Part shown: positions 10,925-23,300 of the stretch, one piece after another
Layout: the number at the start of each line of letters is the position of its first letter
Numbering within the stretch: position 1 is the first letter of the stretch
IMG/VR virus record: IMGVR_UViG_3300031772_000293
Span: 1 to 23,497 of that record
DNA from: a virus
Length of the DNA stretch: 23,497 bases
Direction: 5' to 3' (one strand)
Notes under the pieces: generated by a model
What the model was told of the DNA's origin: nothing
Database searches by the model: none
What the model saw: the letters and a program-made list of their open reading frames with translations, nothing else
Program-made: the position numbers and the translations under genes

Positions 10925-13900
10925 ATGGCACAACTGAAATTTGGCAGCGCCGGCGTTACAGCAAAAGAAATTGACCTTTCTGGACCGGTGGTCCAGCAAC
11001 CGGTCGGAATCCCAGCAGGCATCGTCGGTACAGCCCTGAAGGGGCCGGCATTCGTACCAGTCACTGTTGGAACGATCAGCGATTTTTACGCTAAATTCGG
11101 AAAGACTGACGGTAAGAAATTCGGTCCACTTGCTGTCACTGAATGGATGCGTAATGCCGCCGCTGTCACTTATCTGAGGGTCCTCGGCGTGGGCGACGGA
11201 AAACAGAACCAGTCGGACGGGTCAGTCAATGCCGCCGGATTCACTGTTGGTCAGTTGTTGCCGCGAGCTTCCGATGGCTCACTAGCGGGAAACCAATATG
11301 CCAACTCAGGCACGTTGGGTTCACCTCTCGGGCGAACGTATTTCTTGGGCGCCTTCATGTCAGAATCGGCCGGTTCAACGGTTTTTTCCTCAGCAGGACT
11401 TCAAGGCCCTGGATCTGTCACGCCGGGTGTCAATACTGCTGTACCCATCGTCCGTGGTATTTTGATGGCACCTTCTGGCGTCATTATGCGTGTTTCCTCG
11501 TCGACTGATGGGACCAACTCAGCCCCCGCCTCGACGTTGGTCGCGACTGACGCAACATCAAACGGCAGCCTCGTGGGATCGATTGTCCTGCAAGAGAATA
11601 GCACTGCCAAGCAGGACTTTGTTTTGTTGTTGAATGGTCACCAGGGCACTGATCCTTTGTATCCAAATGTGATCACGGCCTCGTTTGATATGACGAGTCC
11701 CAACTATTTCAGCAATGTTCTAAACACCGATCCCTTCAAGGTCCAGCAGGCCGGTCACTATCTCTATACGTTCTGGGATATTCACCCAGCCACTGCAGTT
11801 GTCACAGGTTCAGGCCTGGTCTCCGAGACTTCTGGAGCCTTTGCCGCGACTGCTCCTAAGACGGGTGCTGAGGCCGCTGTCTTCTTGACGACGAGTTCCC
11901 TGTCACGCAATGTCGGTAGCTCGACTGTGCCTAATTACGAGGCCTTCACTGACAGGTTTAGTCACGCTAAGTCACCGTGGATCATCTCGCAAAAGTTCGG
12001 TGGTGCCGCGGCAGACCTGTTTAGACTCCATGCTCTCGATGCCGGCGCCGATGTCTCGACATTGTATAAGGTTTCGATTGAAAATCTGACGCCTTCGACA
12101 GATCCAGCCAACAAGTTTGGGTCATTTGACCTGGTGATCCGCGATTGGAACGACCGCGACGTTGCCCAATTGCCGCTCGAGGCCTTTCGTGGTATCAATC
12201 TGGACCCTAGTTCAGACCGCTACGTTGCCAAGATCGTCGGCGATGCCCATGTGTTCTTTGACTTCAACCGCGCTGAACCTGCACAGAAGATCGTCATTGA
12301 CGGCAACTATTCAGCACGGTCTAACCTCGTCAGGGTCGAAATGGACGCCGGCGTTGAAAACGGCAGCACAGATCCGACGGCACTGCCTGTTGGATTCCGC
12401 GGCGTTGAACACTTGGTCACCTCGGGTTCTGCACCCCTGGCATCGATCTCTGGTTCACAGTTGACTTCTGCAAATTTCTTGCACCGCGCCGTGTCGCCGC
12501 CTCTGCCGATGAGGAACGATATCACCAATGGTTCAGGACAGAAGGTTTCTGTCAACCCGTTGCTGTACTGGGGCGCGCAGTTTGAACACGTCACCAGCCT
12601 GTCGACACCGAATGCTTCAACACTGAAGAACTATTCGCTCAAGGCGTTTGCCACGTATCTGCCTGATTTTTCGATCACAAATCAGAACGTGGCCGCCGGT
12701 GACAACACCGGAACAGTCGACACAGATGCCCTGGGCATCATCGACGCAGACCGGTTCTGTAACAATTTGTTCACCCTCGAGAATGTCAAAATCGTCACGG
12801 GATCGACGACGCTGGCCGATCCGACACAGTGGGTCTCTGCACAGTACGTTCGAAATGGATCAGCAGTTCCTGATGAAACCGCCAAGACAAGACTGTTCAC
12901 CGTCGACGACCTGATCCAGGCCAACCGCCGCTTCGCCAAGTTCACCTTCTTGGTGCAAGGTGGCTTCAACGGCCTCGACTTGCTCGACAGGGATTCAGTC
13001 GAGCTCAACAACACGGCTGTGACGGCAGACATGAATGCCACCAACCGTGGCCGTGACCAGGGACCCAACGTCCGGGCCTATGCTAAGGCGCTGCAGATCA
13101 TGCAGAACGTTGTCAACACCGACATCCAGCTGCTGGCGATCCCTGGCATCCGCCACCCGATCGTCACCAATGCCGCGGCAGACGCTGTCAAGGATCGCTT
13201 CGATGCCCTCTACATCATGGATATCGAGCAGTTCGACAACAATGACGATGAAGTCTTTGTCGACAGCCAGCTGCCTTCGGTGGCGCTGACGGCGCTGGCT
13301 TTCGCCACACGGGCCCTCGATAACAACTTTGCGGCCGCCTACTTCCCTGACGTGGTGATGCCGGATCCCAACACCAAGACCAACCTCATCGTGCCGCCTT
13401 CGGTGGTCGTCTTGGGTGCTCTAGCCTTGAACGATGCCATCGGTCACCCATGGTTTGCACCGGCAGGTACCACGCGTGGTGCACTGTCGACGACACTTGA
13501 GGCCCGTGTTCAATTGTCGAAGACCAACATGGATGCCTTGTACGATGTGGCCGTCAATCCGTTGGTCGCCTTCCCGGGCAATGCCTCAGGAGGAAACAAC
13601 CCGAAGGGTGGTGTGGTCGTCTGGGGTCAGAAGACACTGCAGGCTGCGGCATCCGCCCTGGACCGTGTCAACGTTCGTCGGTTGCTGATTGAGATCCGTC
13701 GCCAGGTCAGGGACATCTCACAGACGATCATCTTTGAGCCCAACAGGGCGGCCACACTGGCCCGCTTCACTGCGGCAGTCACGCCGAGGCTGCAGAGCAT
13801 CCAGGCCCAGTCCGGTCTCGAGCGGTTCAAGGTCATCATTGACTCATCGACGACGACGCAGCAGGACATCGAGAACAATACGATACGTGGAAAAATTTTC

Positions 13901-13972
13901 GTTCAACCTACGAAATCGATCGAATTCGTTTCATTGGATTTTGTGGTCACCAATAACATCCAGAGCATTTGA
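10925..13972 (+). CDS. Tail sheath protein, second paralog
   Basis: This encodes 1015 residues. The same domain plan as the preceding gene is plain: PAGIVGTALKGPAFVPVTVG with TYLRVLGVGDG near the N-terminus, TSPNYFSNVLNTDP in the middle, HPWFAPAGTTRGAL and DRVNVRRLLIEIRRQ in the C-terminal domain, and the closing strands KIFVQPTKSIEFVSLDFVV. Both ends and all core blocks are intact, so it is not a decaying copy. The centres have diverged strongly. Its 3' half looks richer in G+C than the first sheath gene by eye. Multiple sheath types exist in contractile injection systems such as Afp/PVC; here the second could form a special ring, a segment of the tail, or a host-specific variant. This is inference. 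Confidence 0.95.
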   Translation: MAQLKFGSAGVTAKEIDLSGPVVQQPVGIPAGIVGTALKGPAFVPVTVGTISDFYAKFGKTDGKKFGPLAVTEWMRNAAAVTYLRVLGVGDGKQNQSDGSVNAAGFTVGQLLPRASDGSLAGNQYANSGTLGSPLGRTYFLGAFMSESAGSTVFSSAGLQGPGSVTPGVNTAVPIVRGILMAPSGVIMRVSSSTDGTNSAPASTLVATDATSNGSLVGSIVLQENSTAKQDFVLLLNGHQGTDPLYPNVITASFDMTSPNYFSNVLNTDPFKVQQAGHYLYTFWDIHPATAVVTGSGLVSETSGAFAATAPKTGAEAAVFLTTSSLSRNVGSSTVPNYEAFTDRFSHAKSPWIISQKFGGAAADLFRLHALDAGADVSTLYKVSIENLTPSTDPANKFGSFDLVIRDWNDRDVAQLPLEAFRGINLDPSSDRYVAKIVGDAHVFFDFNRAEPAQKIVIDGNYSARSNLVRVEMDAGVENGSTDPTALPVGFRGVEHLVTSGSAPLASISGSQLTSANFLHRAVSPPLPMRNDITNGSGQKVSVNPLLYWGAQFEHVTSLSTPNASTLKNYSLKAFATYLPDFSITNQNVAAGDNTGTVDTDALGIIDADRFCNNLFTLENVKIVTGSTTLADPTQWVSAQYVRNGSAVPDETAKTRLFTVDDLIQANRRFAKFTFLVQGGFNGLDLLDRDSVELNNTAVTADMNATNRGRDQGPNVRAYAKALQIMQNVVNTDIQLLAIPGIRHPIVTNAAADAVKDRFDALYIMDIEQFDNNDDEVFVDSQLPSVALTALAFATRALDNNFAAAYFPDVVMPDPNTKTNLIVPPSVVVLGALALNDAIGHPWFAPAGTTRGALSTTLEARVQLSKTNMDALYDVAVNPLVAFPGNASGGNNPKGGVVVWGQKTLQAAASALDRVNVRRLLIEIRRQVRDISQTIIFEPNRAATLARFTAAVTPRLQSIQAQSGLERFKVIIDSSTTTQQDIENNTIRGKIFVQPTKSIEFVSLDFVVTNNIQSI

Positions 13973-14002: not shown

Positions 14003-14136
14003 ATGTTCATTGTGTACAAGCATACGTGCAAGATCAATGGAAAGTTGTACGTAGGATTCACTCCTAAGATGATGAAGACGCTCATGTCCTGAACAAAAAG
14101 ATTTACGGTGGCACTCCACCGGGAGACAACGAATGA
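14003..14136 (+). pseudogene. Broken GIY-YIG homing endonuclease relic
   Basis: The ATG at 14003 opens a 29-codon frame, MFIVYKHTCKINGKLYVGFT and on to a TGA at 14090-14092. IVY-KHT-KINGK-YVG-FT matches the GIY-YIG N-terminal motif (GIY, then ten or so residues, then YIG). After that the match continues in another frame from 14068: DDEDAHVLNKKIYGG, which resembles the following helix of such nucleases, and this stops at 14136. The domain is therefore frameshifted and lacks all downstream parts, including the catalytic Glu and DNA-binding region. It lies between the second sheath gene and a tag-protein gene, a typical landing place for free-standing phage homing genes. Confidence in the motif is fairly high; the frame change is inferred. 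Confidence 0.65.
14106..14121 (+). promoter_or_regulatory. Small hairpin directly before a ribosome binding site
   Basis: A perfect 6-bp stem CGGTGG/CCACCG has a 4-base loop (cact). Its last base is the first G of the gggag ribosome binding site (14121-14125) of the tag gene at 14133. It could modulate ribosome access or protect the mRNA 5' side. There is no T-run, so it is not a terminator. Confidence 0.4.
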
Positions 14137-14465
14137 AACTTACTGAACAGCAGCTCCGCAAGATCATCAAGCAGGCCGTCAAGGAACACCTTGCCGAGAC
14201 GACGATGTCTCAAGGCAAAGTCGAGGGACCATTGAAAGAATTCGTGGGTCACCTCAATTTGGCTAAGAAAGACCTAGGCATGCTGTTCCAACAGATCTCA
14301 GATCCCACTGCGGAAGCTCAGGCCCAGTGGTTGCTAAATGCCGTCAACACCATCATCAAGAAGCTCGACCAGATGCCGAAGCTGACGCAGGATCCCTGGG
14401 CTGATCCTGGACACAGGCGATTAACGTGGCCCAGCTCGTCACTGTCAAGCAGCTCCGTAAGTTGA
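14133..14465 (+). CDS. Small helical protein with N-terminal LRxII tag (tag family 1)
   Basis: This encodes 110 residues. The start is ATG with gggag seven bases upstream. The N-terminus, MKLTEQQLRKIIKQAVKEHL, is a basic amphipathic helix shared in pattern with four other small proteins in this window. Residues 30-90 are two predicted helices (FVGHLNLAKKDLGMLFQQIS and the region around WLLNAVNTIIKKLDQM). The C-terminus is Ser-rich and is read over the start of the next gene with a 40-base overlap, so only about 95 residues may be under selection. No enzyme motif is visible. The partial resemblance of its body to tag family member 17374-17655 (helix, then a Trp-containing helix) suggests common descent. 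The function is unknown; see the tag-family finding. Confidence 0.65.
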   Translation: MKLTEQQLRKIIKQAVKEHLAETTMSQGKVEGPLKEFVGHLNLAKKDLGMLFQQISDPTAEAQAQWLLNAVNTIIKKLDQMPKLTQDPWADPGHRRLTWPSSSLSSSSVS

Positions 14466-14650
14466 TCGGCGAGGCCCTCGATATCAAGGTCCGTGAATAC
14501 CGTCAGACCGGTCAATTTGACGAGCCCAAACGGTCGCTGCGCAGCCTCATTGAAGCCCCTCAGGAATCGCGCATTTCTGTGTTGGAGCTACAATATCTGA
14601 TTGATGAAGAATTCTCTGGTGCAGTCTTGAGGGCACAGAAAAGGCCATGA
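14426..14650 (+). CDS. Small protein with LRKLI tag (tag family 2), GTG start
   Basis: This encodes 74 residues from a GTG start; a weak caggcg lies seven bases before it. The tag is VKQLRKLIGEALDIKVREY, displaced a few residues from the N-terminus compared with its relatives. A Pro/Arg linker follows (residues ~27-45), then an acidic helix RISVLELQYLIDEEFSGAVL. It overlaps the previous gene by 40 bases and the next by four (ATGA), so the three genes are a translationally coupled set. The I-G-E-A string inside the tag matches the (L/I)xE consensus cut by T4-type prohead protease. No function is known. Confidence 0.6.
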   Translation: MAQLVTVKQLRKLIGEALDIKVREYRQTGQFDEPKRSLRSLIEAPQESRISVLELQYLIDEEFSGAVLRAQKRP

Positions 14651-14994
14651 AAACCACCGTCCGTGAGCTGCGTAGGGTGATCCGTGAAGAGGTCGAGCTC
14701 AATGAGATCTTTGGCCTGGGAGGCAAAGATTTTTCGTCCACGCTTGATGACATTCTACAAGACCTCAGCAACACCAATAAAAAAGTTGAAAAGGCCCACG
14801 AGATGGCACCCGCGGGAGCAGCTAAGGCGATCGTGGCCGGCCTGCACAGCGATCTCTTCAACAAGGTTGCTGAGTTTCGCAAGTATATCAAGCAATTGAA
14901 GCAGATGGCCTCAGGCAAGGTGCCAGCGACTGAGTCCCGTGTTCGGTCGACAACGACAACTCATAGACATCGTTGGCGCAACCCCAGATCCTGA
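14647..14994 (+). CDS. Small helical tag protein (tag family 3), 3' end disrupted by nuclease insertion
   Basis: This encodes 115 residues in the present frame. It starts in an ATGA overlap with the previous gene. The tag is MKTTVRELRRVIREEVELNE, containing IRE. The body (residues 20-95) is helical, with long amphipathic stretches including DILQDLSNTNKKVEKAHEM and FNKVAEFRKYIKQLKQM. From about residue 99 the sequence turns into a run of Thr, Arg and His with no protein-like pattern, because the frame enters the opposite strand of the homing endonuclease gene. The original C-terminus was therefore probably replaced at about base 14945-14950. The protein may still work if the lost tail was short. 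Confidence 0.6.
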   Translation: MKTTVRELRRVIREEVELNEIFGLGGKDFSSTLDDILQDLSNTNKKVEKAHEMAPAGAAKAIVAGLHSDLFNKVAEFRKYIKQLKQMASGKVPATESRVRSTTTTHRHRWRNPRS

Positions 14995-16621
14995 CCACGT
15001 TGGCAGCCGCGGCAACGTCGGCTTCGGTCAGTTTGTTTTTCTTGTCGGCACGATACTTGAAGCGATTGAACCTGCCGTGAAAGTCGGTCCACCAGAACCG
15101 CGGTGCCGTCGTTGATGATTTTGTGAATCCTGCAGCCACGTACGCGTTCCCTGTTCCCCCAAGACGCGTGTCGACGTAGGTCATCAATTTATTGATGCCT
15201 CTTTTCTTGGCTTTGGTCCCTGCGTGTGCCACGAGTTTCCCTACACCTCCTGTGACCGTGCAGTCGATCCTTGAACACGATCTTGCCACCTCTAGACAGT
15301 CGCGGTGTTTATTGTGAAACGGCCTCCGAAGGCTCAAGGCCGCTACCAGTTCGCCTTGCTTTGTTTTGAGGCCGAGTGCCAAAGTGGAATTCGTGTCGCC
15401 GTCTATGTGGTTTGCATTGAAGAACTCGCGGCGTTCTTTCAATGTTAGTTCAACGACATCACACTTGCGGGCGAAGAAACGTTCTCTTGTCAAGCCTAGC
15501 CTGTGAGTGATCATGCTCTTGACGATCTGTCGTTTGTCTCGCCATTCGTCTTCGAACACGTGGAGAAGGTGAACGTTGTGTTCTGAACATTGCTGTGTCT
15601 TGTTATTGTGATATGTGCTTGACTTGTGCGCTTCACAGTGCCAGTACAGTCCGTTGTATTCGATTGCCAAGTGCTTGTCAGCAATGAATATGTCGAGCTC
15701 AGCCATTCTCTTTGGACCCGAAATGACCGTACGATCATTAGTGGTCACCTTTTTCATCACGGTTCGTAGCCAACTGGCGATCTCACTCTGTGTCGCAGAC
15801 CCGGCAGGATCACACGTGAAGCAACGATTGTATTTCAACATTCGCAGTGAACCATACGTAGTCGCATTGCACGTGTTACACTTGACTTGAATGTTTGGTT
15901 CCTTGTCGCTGATATATGTGGAGAGGTCACTGATCACCGTGAAACAACCATTGGCCTCTACCCGCGATCTGACGTCGTTCTCTGTGAGACGTTTTGTTGC
16001 ATCGAGTTTTTGTCGCAGATTGACCATCGAGTGGGTGATAGAGTTACGTGCAGCCATTTTTGTGATGCGATCGTCAGTCTCCTTTGTGAGACCCTTGGCC
16101 CAAGGTACGTATTTTCCTGTTTCAAACCCTTCCTTGAGGACAGTGGCCAACGCTGCGATCCTGGCATCATCTTTCTTCGTTTTTCCTTTTGACCATGCTG
16201 TGATCTTGCCTTCAGCAAAGGCTTTCGTTCTACCGATCGCTGTTGCCTTTGCGCGATCACGAATTCGGGCGTCGTTTTCTTTTGTTTTGCCTTTTGCCCA
16301 TCCGACCTTGCCTCGGAGCTTGTCAGCTCTCGTGTCCTTGATCTGACGTGCTTTTTCGGGCCCGTAGGCTGCGTCCAGGTTGGCATTGTGTCCGATTATG
16401 AAAGTGCTGTACCCTGTCTTCCACCCGTTCCATCCCGTAGTAGCACCACATCCACACTTACACTTCACAGGTCCTGAGTTCAGAACGTCCCATGCGCCTT
16501 GACACGTGGTGCCATGAACCTCTTGGAGGTGGCGTTCAAAACTCGTCAACCTTTTTGTTGAAAATGATTGACACAGGTGGCAAGTGACAGCGTCCAACTT
16601 TTTACCAGAAATTGCGCTCAT
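14888..16621 (-). CDS. EDxHD/Vsr-like homing endonuclease with NUMOD-type repeats
   Basis: This encodes 577 residues. Domains in order: a C2H2-like zinc finger (C14, C17, H31, H36); a small CKCGCG cluster at 54-59; three NUMOD-like repeats with the pattern W[AS]KG[KL]TK-x2-D-[AD]-RI at ~108-120, 143-155 and 174-186, typical DNA-binding modules of homing enzymes; a CxxC pair at 248/251 and 267/270; then a PD-(D/E)xK-type catalytic core with SEI (279-281), ELDIFI (308-313), IEYNGLYWH (320-328) and LLHVFEDEW (352-360). This core matches the EDxHD family, exemplified by I-Bth0305I. Residues ~400-520 resemble the acetyltransferase-like (Mom/GNAT-type) tail found in such phage nucleases. The last ~20 residues are encoded antisense to the neighbouring tag gene. 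It runs against all nearby genes and has its own sigma70-like promoter. Confidence 0.85.
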   Translation of the reverse strand: MSAISGKKLDAVTCHLCQSFSTKRLTSFERHLQEVHGTTCQGAWDVLNSGPVKCKCGCGATTGWNGWKTGYSTFIIGHNANLDAAYGPEKARQIKDTRADKLRGKVGWAKGKTKENDARIRDRAKATAIGRTKAFAEGKITAWSKGKTKKDDARIAALATVLKEGFETGKYVPWAKGLTKETDDRITKMAARNSITHSMVNLRQKLDATKRLTENDVRSRVEANGCFTVISDLSTYISDKEPNIQVKCNTCNATTYGSLRMLKYNRCFTCDPAGSATQSEIASWLRTVMKKVTTNDRTVISGPKRMAELDIFIADKHLAIEYNGLYWHCEAHKSSTYHNNKTQQCSEHNVHLLHVFEDEWRDKRQIVKSMITHRLGLTRERFFARKCDVVELTLKERREFFNANHIDGDTNSTLALGLKTKQGELVAALSLRRPFHNKHRDCLEVARSCSRIDCTVTGGVGKLVAHAGTKAKKRGINKLMTYVDTRLGGTGNAYVAAGFTKSSTTAPRFWWTDFHGRFNRFKYRADKKNKLTEADVAAAANVVRIWGCANDVYELSLSTEHGTQSLAPCLRPSASIA

Positions 16622-16638
16622 GATGATGACCTACCGAT

Positions 16639-16644
16639 ATTATA
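16639..16644 (-). promoter_or_regulatory. Sigma70-like -10 box of the homing endonuclease gene
   Basis: The minus strand reads TATAAT here, a perfect bacterial -10 hexamer, 17 bases before the nuclease start codon. A transcript would begin near 16632 and carry a short leader with taggt. The -35 region is weak (about 3 of 6 matches). This suggests expression by unmodified host polymerase, unlike the late genes around it. Confidence 0.5.
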
Positions 16645-16670
16645 ACTTAGGCGGGGTGATGCGTTTAATG

Positions 16671-16678
16671 CATAAATA
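16671..16678 (+). promoter_or_regulatory. Putative late promoter, CATAAATA
   Basis: This matches the T4 late consensus TATAAATA at 7 of 8 positions. It lies 75 bases before the tail tube ATG, in the gap between the divergent nuclease and tube genes. It is the only copy in the window closer to T4 than to ATACTTA. The tube gene would need its own promoter because the inserted nuclease separates it from the sheath operon. Confidence 0.45.
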
Positions 16679-16752
16679 GTTTATAAACGTTTGTGATTCA
16701 GTTATATCTATGTGTTGAAGGCCCGCCATGGGTCAGGAGTGGAGAAAATAAC

Positions 16753-17244
16753 ATGCCGGCAGAGACACTAGACGTAACATCGATGCTCCCCAACAAATTC
16801 GAGCCAAAACGAAAAAATAGATGGGTCCTCATGATCGAAGGCATCGACGCCTACATCATCAAGACAGCGGCCCGACCGACTGTGGCGACCGAAGAAGTCG
16901 TCATCCCGTTCATCAATGCCACCAGGTACCTGGCCGGCAAGACAACGTTCAACACCATCGCGGTCACGCTGCACGATCCGATTGCACCCTCCGGTGCCCA
17001 GCAGGTGATGGAGTGGGTCCGCACGTGTTACGAGAGCGTCTCAGGACGTTCAGGCTACGCTGACTTCTACAAGCGTGACATTCAGCTGAAGATGTTGGAC
17101 CCAGTCGGTACCGTGGTCGAATTGTGGGACATCAAGGGAGCGTTTGCCACCGAAGTCAACTTCGGTGAGCTAACGTATGAAGGTGGAGAACTCGCGGAAA
17201 TTTCTCTCACACTCCGCTTCGACAATGCGGTTTTGCAGTTTTAA
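16753..17244 (+). CDS. Tail tube protein (T4 gp19-like)
   Basis: This encodes 163 residues, the same length as T4 gp19. It polymerises into the inner tube through which DNA leaves the virion. The start is ATG with ggag at 16741-16744; in-frame codons upstream to 16693 lack protein-like sequence. Recognisable features are KNRWVLMIEGIDAYIIKTAA (N-terminal strand pair), EEVVIPFINATRYLAGKTTF (the hairpin that packs between tube subunits), TLHDPIAPSGAQQVMEWVRT with its helix, and the closing strands INFG-type VNFGELTYEGGE. Sheath, tube and tape measure genes in this order are typical, though here a nuclease and tag genes separate sheath from tube. A terminator follows 30 bases later. Confidence 0.92.
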   Translation: MPAETLDVTSMLPNKFEPKRKNRWVLMIEGIDAYIIKTAARPTVATEEVVIPFINATRYLAGKTTFNTIAVTLHDPIAPSGAQQVMEWVRTCYESVSGRSGYADFYKRDIQLKMLDPVGTVVELWDIKGAFATEVNFGELTYEGGELAEISLTLRFDNAVLQF

Positions 17245-17274
17245 GTCGTATACGATCTCTCAAGTAGTTGTTTT

Positions 17275-17304
17275 GAAAGGTCTTTTCGGAGGCCTTTCGG
17301 CTTT
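17275..17304 (+). terminator. Terminator after the tail tube gene
   Basis: GAAAGGTC (17275-17282) pairs with GGCCTTTC (17291-17298) over eight pairs, one of them G-T, with an 8-base loop. The following ggctttaat is only weakly T-rich, so termination may be partial. Confidence 0.6.
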
Positions 17305-17357
17305 AATCTGTTCGACAGTATACATCGCTTTGTCAAATGACAGCGTGACTCGTGCTT

Positions 17358-17365
17358 GATACTTA
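17358..17365 (+). promoter_or_regulatory. Putative late promoter, GATACTTA
   Basis: This is an exact copy whose last A is eight bases before the ATG of the tag gene. T4-like spacing puts the transcript start near 17371, a leader of about three bases with no room for a ribosome binding site. Confidence 0.6.
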
Positions 17366-17373
17366 CTGTTACG

Positions 17374-17655
17374 ATGAAACTGACTTCTCGTGAGCTCCGT
17401 AGGCTGATCAAGGAGACTGTGCAAACGTCACTGTCTGAAAGTCCAGCATTCAGCAACACTGTTCTGCAAGCTGCAGCAAGCGTCCGTTTCGAGTGTAAAA
17501 AATTGGCCGAACTGTGTAACAAGCTGCCTGATGAACTCGATGATCATCAGCGTGAGTCATTGCCGGTCTGGGTCAAAAAATCAATCACTAGCATGCGTGA
17601 ATCGTTGGATGACCTTGAGTCACAGCTTGGTTCTCACAGTTCAGGTCGACAATAA
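17374..17655 (+). CDS. Small helical protein with LRRLI tag (tag family 4)
   Basis: This encodes 93 residues, starting at ATG 17374. An in-frame TTG at 17356 would lie upstream of the promoter motif's predicted transcript start and is rejected. The tag MKLTSRELRRLIKETVQTSL is the clearest of the five and includes the I-K-E string. The body is two amphipathic helices: FECKKLAELCNKLPDEL, then a Trp-containing helix followed by SITSMRESLDDLESQL. Its layout is like that of the tag protein at 14133. No catalytic motif or membrane segment is visible. It is alone in its transcription unit, bounded by its own promoter and a terminator. Confidence 0.7.
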   Translation: MKLTSRELRRLIKETVQTSLSESPAFSNTVLQAAASVRFECKKLAELCNKLPDELDDHQRESLPVWVKKSITSMRESLDDLESQLGSHSSGRQ

Positions 17656-17710
17656 GACTCGGGGAGCGATCGAATTCCTGTCACCGCAGTGGCGATCGAC
17701 ACTCTGTCCG

Positions 17711-17747
17711 GCGAAGGTCCTCATGTTGGGGACCTTCGCGCTATTTA
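17711..17747 (+). terminator. Terminator hairpin after tag gene 4
   Basis: A perfect 10-bp stem (17711-17720 with 17730-17739, GCGAAGGTCC/GGACCTTCGC) has a 9-base loop. The following ctattta is only moderately T-rich and doubles as the promoter motif of the next gene, so terminator and promoter are directly fused. Confidence 0.65.
17740..17747 (+). promoter_or_regulatory. Possible late promoter, GCTATTTA
   Basis: This matches GATACTTA at 6 of 8 positions. T4-like spacing puts +1 exactly on the A of the ATG at 17753, a leaderless start. It sits immediately behind the terminator stem. Weaker than the exact copies. Confidence 0.35.
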
Positions 17748-17752
17748 AGTCT

Positions 17753-18040
17753 ATGCTGCGCATCAAGCGTTTGATCCGTGCCCTGGTCAGGGAACACATG
17801 TCGACTTTTTCGGCCCCTTTGATGAAATTGCCCTATGATGACATGTCACCGTTGCTCGATGACCTTGAGGTGAGGTTGCAAGACGGGACCATGAGCCAAT
17901 CAGACTACGACAGAGAATATGCAGAGGTCTTGCAGGCATCAGGGTGGTCGCCTCTGGAGTTTGAGCAGGAAGTCGACCGGCGTTGGGACTTCGTCGACCA
18001 GCTGCGAGCAGTGGCTCCCAAGGTTCGTTATCGAAACTGA
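17753..18040 (+). CDS. Small acidic protein with N-terminal LIRALVRE tag (tag family 5)
   Basis: This encodes 95 residues. The tag here is MLRIKRLIRALVREHM, a variant of the LR[KR][ILV]I pattern. An alternative start at ATG 17798 (residue 16) has a good aggga ribosome binding site six bases upstream and would remove the tag, so both a tagged and an untagged form could be made. The body is acidic and helical with DDMSPLLDDLEVRLQDGTMS and SDYDREYAEVLQASGWSPLE, followed by FEQEVDRRWDFVDQLRAV. No known family is recognised. The following gene starts 39 bases later (GTG) without a promoter motif and is probably cotranscribed. Confidence 0.55.
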   Translation: MLRIKRLIRALVREHMSTFSAPLMKLPYDDMSPLLDDLEVRLQDGTMSQSDYDREYAEVLQASGWSPLEFEQEVDRRWDFVDQLRAVAPKVRYRN

Positions 18041-19624: not shown

Positions 19625-20335
19625 ATGCCCAAGGACAAGTGGACGTCAGCCGGCGGCGTAGTTCTCGATAGCATGGACCCTCCTCACAGGGTCTTTGTCT
19701 GTAAACCTTCCAATAATTTTGGCCCGTGGTGTTTTCCAAAAGGCCGCGTCGACACAGGAGAAGGAATCGAGGCCACTGCCCTCCGTGAGGTCCAAGAAGA
19801 AGCCGGCGTTCCAGCTGAAATTTTGCCTCACGGAGGGCTGGGAACGGGTGTCGGAACCATGAGCATCACACATTATTTTATGATGGTCAGGACCGGTCCT
19901 GTGGGCGGCCACGATGACGAGATGGAAAAAGTTCGCTGTGTCACTCTCGAGGAAGCCGAGCAATTGTTCGCCTCCGCGGGCAATTCGCGCGATATTGGGA
20001 TCCTGAATCGAGCTCGCGCCTATCTAGAAAAGCAACATGAGGTCACCAACATGAGCGACAAGCAACAGCTCAACGAGCTAGGAGTCAATCTTCTCGGTAA
20101 GATTTTCTTTGCCACAGTGGGCGCCTGGCTTGTCGGCAAAGCGGTCAACACTAAGATCAGGGGATCGGAGGACCAAGTTCGCGCAGTTTCCAATGCCATG
20201 TTGGCCTCACGGAGGTTTCAAGAAGAGCTTCGCAGGCCGGGTGCCTCTGTCGACAGCGTGGTTCAGAAGCTCGGCGTCAAGCACATGTCGGCCCAAGAGT
20301 TCGAACGTGCCCTCGGCGTACCCTGGCCCCTGTGA
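19625..20335 (+). CDS. Nudix hydrolase fused to a membrane-type C-terminal domain
   Basis: This encodes 236 residues. The Nudix domain (1-140) hydrolyses nucleoside diphosphates linked to another moiety; the specific substrate cannot be read here. The Nudix box is perfect at 40-62: G40, E46, R54, E55, E58, E59, G61. SAGGVVLD and WCFPKGR flank it as usual. From residue 143 a second part begins: NELGVNLLGKIFFATVGAWL, with a hydrophobic stretch at ~156-174, then a charged helix and the ending FERALGVPWPL. Met143 (base 20051) has its own gagg at 20039-20042, so the 94-residue C-terminal part may also be made separately; I recall similar domains as stand-alone phage proteins. A promoter motif abuts the start codon. 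The tape measure gene follows after ten bases. The C-terminal part's function is unknown. Confidence 0.85.
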   Translation: MPKDKWTSAGGVVLDSMDPPHRVFVCKPSNNFGPWCFPKGRVDTGEGIEATALREVQEEAGVPAEILPHGGLGTGVGTMSITHYFMMVRTGPVGGHDDEMEKVRCVTLEEAEQLFASAGNSRDIGILNRARAYLEKQHEVTNMSDKQQLNELGVNLLGKIFFATVGAWLVGKAVNTKIRGSEDQVRAVSNAMLASRRFQEELRRPGASVDSVVQKLGVKHMSAQEFERALGVPWPL

Positions 20336-20345
20336 AAGGTGAGCC

Positions 20346-23300
20346 ATGGCGGCAGCTGACAAAGAACAGGTAGAGCTAGCGACAAAGCTTGCGTCCTTGA
20401 TGGATCGCATGGCTTCCTCGTCTGGAAAAATTGACGCTAACACCAGCGATCAGGTTGCATCGATGGAAAAACTGGCACAGGCCATGTCTGCACTCGACAT
20501 GCGCGCGGCTGTCAGTCAGCTCAACGAGGTCTCACAGGGTGTCAAGGCCATCGTCGACAAGATGGGTGAGCTAGCCAAGTCGCAGCAAGAAACGCTGGAC
20601 CAACTGGGGAAAAAGGCCGTCGAGGCCGGTACTCAGGTCAGCACCTTGACCGGCCGCATGACGGAAACGAAACTTTCACTGGACGAAATCAACAAGATGT
20701 CGTTCGACAAGTTTTTGAGCGCACTTGAAAACAGTGGCAGCGTCACCGCGGCGCTACAACTTAGCGTTAAAAAATTGGGAGGTGAAGCCAGCAAGAAGTT
20801 TCCAATGTCAATGGCTGTTGCCGCGGCGGCTACTTCAGGCCTCGTGCAGGGATTCAAGAACCTGGTTGCCTTGAGCAAAGGTGTCATGGGTTTCATGTCT
20901 AGTCTGGTCGGCGGCATCGGTTCAGTAGCTGGAGCCATCATTGCGATCCCGTTCAAGATGTTCAAGGGCTTGATCGACATGGCCAACAATGCCGGCGGTG
21001 GGTCAAGTGAACTAGCACAGGCCATCGAAGATCTCCGTAAGGAATTTGGTGCCTTGGGAACGGGTTCTCCCAAGATCATCATGAACATGGCCACTGAATT
21101 GAAGGGGTTCGCTGCCACTGGCCTCGATTCATTTCGCATCTTCGGCAACGTAGCTGAGAGACTGAAGGCATTCTTGAAACTGGCTCAAGGCATGGGACCA
21201 CTGTTCCAGAGCTTTGCTCAAGAATTCAAAGACAATGGTGGCGCAATTCTAGCGTGGCAGAAAGGTCTCGGACTGTCAGATGAACAGATGAAGTCGATCG
21301 GTCAACAGGCCAAAGTCATGGGCAAGTCGATGGCCTCAGTGCTGTTGCCGATGCAAAAGCAGGCTCAGGACCTAGGTGCAGCTTTTGGTATCGATTCTAA
21401 GTTGATCTCGCGGGATATGACCAAAGCACTGGGCGACATGAAACACTTTGCAGGCGCCGCAGTCAAAGAGATTGCACAAGCCTCAGTCTATGCCCGTAAG
21501 TTGGGCCTGGAGTTGCACGATATCACCGGTACCCTGGACGCATTTGAGACCTTTGACACAGCCGCAGAAAATGCCTCCAAATTGTCACAAGCTTTTGGTT
21601 TGAACGTCGATGCCTTCCAGCTGATGGAAGCACAGGATCCTGCAAAGCAGGTCGACATGTTGCGTAAGAGCATGGCAGCTGCAGGCCAAGATGCCTCGAC
21701 ATTCAACAGGCAGCAATTGAAGCTGTTGTCGAGTAGTACGGGCTTGACCGAAGAACAGGCGCGCATGGCCTTTTCGATGAAGAACCAAGGTGTGGGGCTA
21801 GACGAGATCAAGAAGAAGAGCGAGTCTGCAGAGAAGAAACAACTGTCACAGGCTGATGCCATGAAGAAACTGGCAGATTCAATTGAACGATTGGTCCAAT
21901 CAGGAGGTGGCAGTCAAGGTGGTTTCTTTGAGAGGTTCTTCCGCGGTTTCTTGGGAGGAATTCAGGCCTCCAAGGGCTTCCGTGACATCATTATGAACAT
22001 CAAGATGGGACTGATTGCCACCGAGCGTGCAGGTGTCAAGTTGGGCCGTGCCTTTGCTGCCTTGGCACCCATCAAAGACGTTCTAGAAGGTATTGCAGCC
22101 TTGTTTCAGCCTGGAAAGTTTGGCAAGTTGTTCGGCGGTATCTCGACTGAATTTGCCGGATTTTTCAAAGACATGACGACCGGCACCGGCTCGATCAAGG
22201 GCTTGATGGACAACATTCAACGTCATTTTCTTGATTTTTTCAGCACAGAGACAGGTCCGGGCAAGCGGGTCATACAGGGTTTCAAAAGAGTATTTGAAGC
22301 GATTTTCAAGATCTTGACAGAAAGCATCAAGTTCTTGGCCCCGAAAATGGCTGATGTCATCCGCAGCATTGCTAGCTTCATCACTGATCCAAAGAAATTC
22401 ATGGAAGCTGCGGGTGGGGCCACAAGTGGTTTCATGGCCACTGCGATAGCGTTCTTGAAGCCATTGGGCGAGGCCCTCGTTGGTGCAGTCCGTGTGTTGC
22501 TGCCGGCATTGATGGAGTTGGGTTCTGCGATCGTCAAAAAACTGGCAGAACTGTGGGGTATATTGTGGGCCAAACCTGAGGTCAAAGCATTTGTTGCAAA
22601 AGCTGCCCCTGCAATCGCGCTAGTGTTGTTTGGCCCGGCTTTGACAAGGGGACTGTTGGGCTTCATCACCACACAGTTGGGAACGATGTTGTTGAAGTCA
22701 GTCATGACTGCTTTCACCGGTCCTGCTGCCGAGGCCGCAGGATCTGCAGGAACAAAAGGTCTAGGCAAAGTCTTGACCAAGTCGCTGGGTTCATTGGGAA
22801 AGTTTTTGGGTCCAGCAGCCATCATTGCTGTCATCGCTGACCTGGCCGTCAATGTCGACACAGCGATGAAGAAATTTGAAGACAAGTTGGCCCCCACGTT
22901 TGGGAAAACTGAGGCCAAAGTAGGTTCTGCGGCAACTGGTATCATCAATGCTTTGACGTTGGGATTGTTGCCTGATGGTGTACAGGAATCGATTGCAGTG
23001 TCAATTGCTGGTCTTGCTAAAAATGTTTTCTCTGCTGTTGAGAATTTCTTTGGCAAGAGCTTTACCGATCGCCTGAAGGCCTACTTGTCGGCTGGAATTG
23101 ACCTGTTCGCTAGCATCGGCAACTTGATCAAGACAATTTTCAAAGGCAATGAAGGCGACATCGCAGATGCCTTGATGGACGTGGGTGAAAAATTCCTGAA
23201 GTACGTTGGTAACTGGCTCCTATTTTTGGCTGAATCAATTCCCACGTTGGCAGTCAAGATGCTGGCATTTGGTACTAAGCTATTGAGTGCCTTTTGGGGC

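Follow-up and report, generated by a model that had tools for sequence, protein, structure and literature searches.

A modular N-terminal tag on unrelated proteins of an uncultivated T4-like phage lineage, a probable capsid-targeting propeptide

Four small proteins encoded around the tail tube gene of an uncultivated phage begin with one common N-terminus. We consider it very probable that this N-terminus is the capsid-targeting propeptide of a T4-like lineage, trimmed by an S77 protease, and that the bodies behind it reside in the head and are probably injected. The lineage, judged by its S77 protease and its gp20/gp23-type portal and capsid proteins, appears T4-like, if distant from T4 itself. 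The original prediction, made from this DNA alone, had proposed a capsid-targeting propeptide of the T4 kind, cleaved behind (L/I)xE by a gp21-like protease, and comparison with relatives strongly supports it: the relatives encode an S77 protease, an [LI]xE motif recurs behind the helix in a hold-out set, head-module proteins have tag-like N-termini, and the tag precedes unrelated bodies, enzymes among them.

In the mechanism that we propose, a basic amphipathic helix of ~14-16 residues would attach the new protein to the scaffolding core while the prohead assembles. Cleavage by the S77 prohead protease would follow behind (L/I)xE, where the helix ends (E14), at a further site at about residues 18-24, or at both. 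The propeptide would be lost, and the unrelated mature bodies would remain in the head with the DNA, probably to be delivered into the host at infection. We infer docking, cutting, packaging and delivery from the T4 system, in which all four were established by truncation and fusion experiments (PMC9026906); what the bodies do is likewise proposed.

The window and its tagged proteins

The window spans the whole of an IMG/VR virus record (23,497 bases) that contains a single contig. It covers the neck and tail region of a contractile-tailed phage, with two sheath genes (the one at 7706 matches phrog_23, E 1e-48), the tail tube, a baseplate-hub-like gene and, at 20346, a long open frame that resembles a tape measure protein. 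No head genes lie within these 23,497 bases, and the whole-genome tests were therefore run on relatives. The tail tube relatives are 76-88% identical, and tagged genes lie on both sides of the tube gene in the window and in the relatives. The features discussed below are the following (bits refer to the tag profile):

10925..13972, plus strand: second tail sheath gene, adjoining T1 upstream; assigned from its reading frame and its likeness to the 7706 sheath
14133..14465, plus strand: T1, tagged, 110 aa; tag residues 1-16 at 14133-14180; 34.8 bits
14426..14650, plus strand: T2, tagged, 74 aa; begins with GTG inside the last part of T1; tag residues 3-18; 16.9 bits
14647..14994, plus strand: T3, tagged, 115 aa; 32.9 bits; homologues in L002, L081 and L164/G008
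16693..17244, plus strand: tail tube gene (start may be 16756); phrog_4542, E 6e-27
17374..17655, plus strand: protein T4, tagged, 93 aa; 34.4 bits
17822..18040, plus strand: fifth claimed member, untagged; probable start, as homologues begin at this Met, residue 24 counted from 17753

The tag profile used for this scoring was built from other contigs, with the window sequences left out. When all reading frames of the window were shuffled 100 times, one 16-mer reached 12 bits, and the highest score was 13.9. The N-termini of T1-T4 share the motif M[KR][IL]Txx[QE]LR[RKQ][IL]I[KR]E[EA], ~16 residues long. Five proteins had been credited with this common N-terminus; it is present in those starting at 14133, 14426, 14647 and 17374 and missing from the one at 17753. 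The latter scores -10 bits, and its homologues (L002, L003, L044/L164, L046, L081) align only from its residue 16-24 on and mostly begin MKL[SP], so that the true start of the gene is most likely 17822, without a tag. A fifth tagged protein was rejected on these two grounds.

The IKE, IRE, IGE and LAE triplets reported earlier for T4, T3, T2 and T1, respectively, are all found in the sequence. T1 begins MKLTEQQLRKIIKQAVKEHLAE/T (slashes mark predicted or candidate cuts), and is predicted to be cut behind LAE22 (codons 14190-14198); because residue 14 is Q, [LI]xE fits at the second site only. Its homologue in L062/L064/L171 keeps the body and has an LxE site (MKLSALRLVVREELSRLNE/V). T3 begins MKTTVRELRRVIREEVELNE/I, with candidate cuts at IRE14 (14680-14688) and LNE20 (14698-14706). 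Between T3 and its homologues M1, L8, I12, E14, E15 and E20 are invariant, and the spacing from the helix to E20 varies by 2-4 residues. Protein T4 begins MKLTSRELRRLIKETVQTSLSE/S, with candidate cuts at IKE14 (17407-17415) and LSE22 (17431-17439), and its body has a weak likeness to DUF7239, under the cut-off.

T2 begins VAQLVTVKQLRKLIGEALDIKVRE/Y and could be cut after LIGE16 (IGE codons 14465-14473) or after VRE24 (14489-14497). Deeper in this protein there is another tag-like stretch, RISVLELQYLIDEEF, and T2 can be aligned to proteins of L002 and G008 that carry tags in tandem. Such pairs of tag-like helices are seen in the window (14426-14650), L002 (2042-2767), G008 (L164; 13391-13585) and G010:C1 (20992-21393); in such proteins [LP]xE or LxE precedes the second helix, as in LPE/GRLTTDQLQTVIDEE.

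Two other genes of the window deserve mention. Between T3 and the tail tube, the minus strand carries a 577-aa frame (14888-16621), Cys-rich with zinc-finger-like repeats, for which a Pfam scan gave no match. It resembles a free-standing gene of the endonuclease type that has been inserted here, since T3 and the tube are only ~57 bases apart in the relative L002; the end of T3, at the junction with this frame, is unlike its homologues. Between the baseplate-hub-like gene and the tape measure, the gene at 19625-20335 encodes a NUDIX domain (PF00293, E 4e-15) followed by an unrelated C-terminal part of ~90 aa.

Unrelated bodies behind a shared N-terminus

Across 146 non-redundant tagged proteins, information reaches ~3-4 bits at M1, K2, T4, L8, R9, I11, I12 and E14, the last of which lies inside the profile, so that its conservation is partly selection and not independent evidence. 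Conservation collapses past residue 16-22: information is under 0.5 bit by residues 20-24, residue 22 showing a slight rise. The bodies had been said to differ, and the wider sample bears this out: 616 non-redundant tagged proteins (the 146 and a hold-out set; median length 113 aa) form 424 body clusters, 349 of them singletons, and no Pfam family is common to two members either among 143 tagged proteins or in a second scanned set. On the strength of these 424 clusters the shared N-terminus is a detachable tag and not one domain.

The families that were matched include a HAD phosphatase (RNA-repair type), PAP2, a YkuD L,D-transpeptidase, a P-loop kinase, an exonuclease, GNAT, HNH and a tRNA-ligase phosphodiesterase-like protein. 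Kinase, HAD phosphatase and L,D-transpeptidase stand as complete enzymes directly behind the tag. In the P-loop kinase of L238 (MKITNKQLRQIIKEELNRVLRE/NMGLKMFVLVGPPSVGKS), position 1 of the AAA_33 profile falls at residue 28, behind VLRE22/N, and the tag thus precedes a complete enzyme. The same modularity is visible in DNA: in G025 the tag DNA is 70% identical between genes, whereas bodies and upstream DNA are 27-31% identical. An AlphaFold2 model of T3 (four sequences; low confidence, pLDDT 56) has helices at 5-21, 29-53 and 58-88, that is, the tag as a separate helix and the body as a helical hairpin, with the linker 18-27, including LNE20, as the least certain stretch; the model weakly favours a tag that forms its own helix apart from the body. 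Elsewhere, on the minus strand of G011:C1 at 78980, a 362-aa protein has a weakly tag-like start (11 bits) followed by what by eye is a DnaJ-type J-domain.

That the tag is a piece of one ordinary folded domain, or of a diverged paralogous family, is an outcome that had been named as fatal to the propeptide idea, and it did not occur. T1, T3 and T4 all have helical-looking bodies and some body families recur, as T3 does in three relatives, but the number of body clusters, the loss of information past the tag, the divergence behind the G025 tags and the unrelated enzyme domains all stand against a single fold. Domain content already contradicts this explanation, which we regard as extremely unlikely.

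A cleavage motif and the head module of relatives

The gp21 protease of phage T4 cleaves behind L/I-x-E; when the Glu is replaced by Asp, processing is blocked while targeting persists (PMC9026906). The core of our tag ends in I12-x-E14, which at the level of the motif is the (L/I)xE expected at the end of a capsid-targeting sequence (CTS). A second [LI]xE with its E at residues 18-24 is present in 69 of the 146 proteins of the first set (column shuffle 26 +/- 4, maximum 40) and in 238 of 470 (51%) hold-out proteins, which were chosen on residues 2-14 only. Equal windows further into the hold-out proteins contain [LI]xE in 34-42 proteins (7-9%), and 1000 rounds of column shuffling gave 101 +/- 7, maximum 124. 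Within the hold-out, L and I are enriched before xE, M and V weakly so; after [LI]x, E is sevenfold enriched, K, R, S and N are mildly enriched, and [LI]xD is depleted (21 versus 58). Enrichment of [LI]xE and depletion of [LI]xD are what gp21 specificity, with its block by Asp, leads one to expect (PMC9026906). The residue past the candidate cut is Ala in 25 of 80 cases in the first set, and Gln, Met, Asn and Ala are over-represented in the hold-out. About half of the tagged proteins lack the second [LI]xE. Part of the L/E phasing could arise if the amphipathic helix runs on further, but such an extension by itself would give no preference for E over D.

A cellular signal for sorting or binding that is never cut and has nothing to do with the virion, directing proteins, for example, to RNA, a membrane or a phage compartment, would be in keeping with the ability of basic amphipathic helices to bind RNA or membranes and with the metabolic and nucleic-acid enzymes among the bodies. 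Such a signal predicts neither the second [LI]xE with its [LI]xD depletion nor tag-like N-termini next to a prohead protease, and we hold it to be very improbable.

A gp21-like protease, whose absence would have spoken against a propeptide, had been recommended as a target of search. The S77 protease (PF03420) is encoded by 11 of 16 tail tube relatives and by 14 of 15 further long tag-bearing records; in the long contigs G011 and G002 all searched head genes are missing, not just the protease. The gene order in ten contigs is a ~280-aa HNKKRN protein, the protease, a ~150-aa protein, a ~90-aa protein (in 9 of 10 contigs), the scaffold and the major capsid protein. All nine aligned ~150-aa proteins have the tag-like start [IVLM][ST]...LK.[LI][VI]K[ED].L[VI]EIL.EG, ending in an LxE/G (ILxE/G) site. 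The ~90-aa protein likewise has a tag-like N-terminus, with two tag-like stretches in G010. In 10 of 10 major capsid proteins L[KR]E stands before a Gly/Ser-rich stretch at the delta-domain border, the place where T4 gp23 has LTE65/A. The scaffold has L.EG near its C-terminus in 6 of 8 cases and [LV].E[SG] slightly before it in 7 of 8. One motif thus marks capsid, scaffold and core-region proteins and the tags as well. The tag-like N-termini of the small proteins encoded between protease and scaffold suggest that the tag may bind the scaffold core.

Many tagged genes cluster by the tail tube and not by the head genes, a pattern that is partly an artefact, as the relatives were fetched via the tube. 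The helix could be a peptide that docks onto part of the tail (the tube, tape measure or baseplate), and the tagged proteins tail accessories or tail-delivered. Tagged genes lie beside the tube in the window and many relatives, and in several contigs one tagged family is directly upstream of it. Yet no tail structural protein of the window is tagged, many tagged arrays are far from tail genes, it is small head-module proteins that bear tag-like N-termini, and the [LI]xE grammar fits a head protease. We consider a tail docking peptide improbable and retain the propeptide reading.

As for transcription, no T4-type late promoter (TATAAATA) was found upstream of tagged genes. TATATAT/ATATATA occurs 28-36 bases upstream of tagged genes in G004:C1 and G005:C1 (for example at G004 positions 55539, 66586 and 192658). 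It is present only 9 times in the 213 kb of G004, where all four genes with the element near their start are tagged, one of them being the ~90-aa head-module gene. The element is over-represented in G004 and G005, not in G001, and is possibly a shared promoter of tagged genes.

Spread of the tag, known systems and implications

Via the tail tube 80 relatives were located. In 12 long ones the profile gave up to 28 hits per contig, nearly all of them coinciding with a start codon; shuffled frames gave 0-2. A collection scan with a strict degenerate DNA pattern of the tag matched at least 120 stretches of the viral collection, whereas 257 Gb of bacterial and archaeal genomes yielded only 10, spread over 6 contigs. 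These 6 are probably phage contigs binned into metagenome-assembled genomes (MAGs); two of the assemblies also contain the S77 protease. Dozens of tags lie on NHDW01000006.1 (G029:C5, 306 kb; MAG Methylococcaceae TMED69) and on PBIO01000025.1 (G028:C25, 101 kb; MAG Halobacteriovorax), both probably phage contigs inside bacterial MAGs and possible hints to hosts. The whole-genome search for the tag suggested at the outset, run with the profile on relatives and other IMG/VR contigs, found up to 40 tagged proteins per record among the matches listed, far beyond what the window alone shows (40 in a 284-kb, 29 in a 293-kb and 28 in a 289-kb contig), counts that apply to contigs, which are fragments, and not to complete genomes. 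On the minus strand of G025:C1, tagged genes form dense arrays at 184565-189217 (~11 genes) and 271036-284375 (>20 genes), which resemble an accessory or anti-defence island.

Against named phage records, tblastn with the tag gave one weak hit, the 484-kb metagenomic phage LR756508, which the profile confirmed with 21 tags. The profile has no match in T4, KVP40, S-PM2, P-SSM2, HTVC008M, Mel-JY01, RM378, phiM12, S-SKS1, PA5oct or Atu_ph07; for T4 and KVP40 this holds at E up to 1, and similarity to the T4 tags is thus not seen. The tag string has no match in the open-licence papers searched.

The tag nevertheless has much in common with the T4 CTS of IPI, IPII, IPIII and Alt, which is processed by gp21: a short N-terminus common to unrelated bodies (PMC9026906, PMC3012670, PMC12373910), (L/I)xE at its end with an S77 protease in the genome, a likely association with the scaffold core, and enzymes among the proteins that it precedes (Alt in T4; kinase, phosphatase and transpeptidase here). 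In contrast to the T4 CTS, it cannot be aligned to it, is 14-24 instead of 10 residues long, strongly basic and often followed by two candidate cut sites, has counterparts on core-region proteins and is used about ten times more, on up to 40 proteins per contig versus about four. By this analogy the tag would work like a CTS, with the same layout, a different sequence, another lineage and tens of proteins.

Many head proteins of the giant phages phiKZ and SPN3US have N-terminal propeptides that a gp21-like protease removes after xxE (PMC5694885). Their ejection-protein propeptides resemble ours in this protease and in redundant cut sites, but are mostly >100 residues long, share no short tag and are cut at S/A-x-E, not L/I-x-E (PMC5694885). 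A cultured relative, Flavobacterium phage immuto (NC_055915), has a related tail tube (43%), an S77 protease and a capsid protein with IVSE/A. Four of its proteins start with a shorter variant, MKKS[QE][LI]: gp072, encoded between portal and protease, gp080 and the products of the genes at 102294 and 102880. The immuto tag is two residues shorter than ours and present in about four copies, one of which matches the tag profile well.

The internal proteins of T4 counter Type IV restriction enzymes individually (PMC12373910). This anti-restriction role offers a reason for a large, fast-changing repertoire. Since restriction enzymes are the target of those T4 internal proteins that have been studied to date (PMC12373910), many of the tagged bodies may be early counter-defence proteins.

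We think it rather likely that a widespread uncultivated lineage loads tens of unrelated proteins per particle into the head by one modular tag and delivers them at infection, with a repertoire that would include RNA- and cell-wall-acting enzymes and a tag joined to incoming genes in dedicated arrays. To our knowledge, phage-injected proteins are mostly uncharacterised, and even in T4 few internal proteins have known targets. The tag predicts new N-termini after [LI]xE in virions. It can be read in raw sequence and gives hundreds of candidate injected proteins, nearly all of the 424 body clusters in the sample being without a known family; if the proposal is true, the injected-protein repertoire of these phages would be legible from sequence alone.
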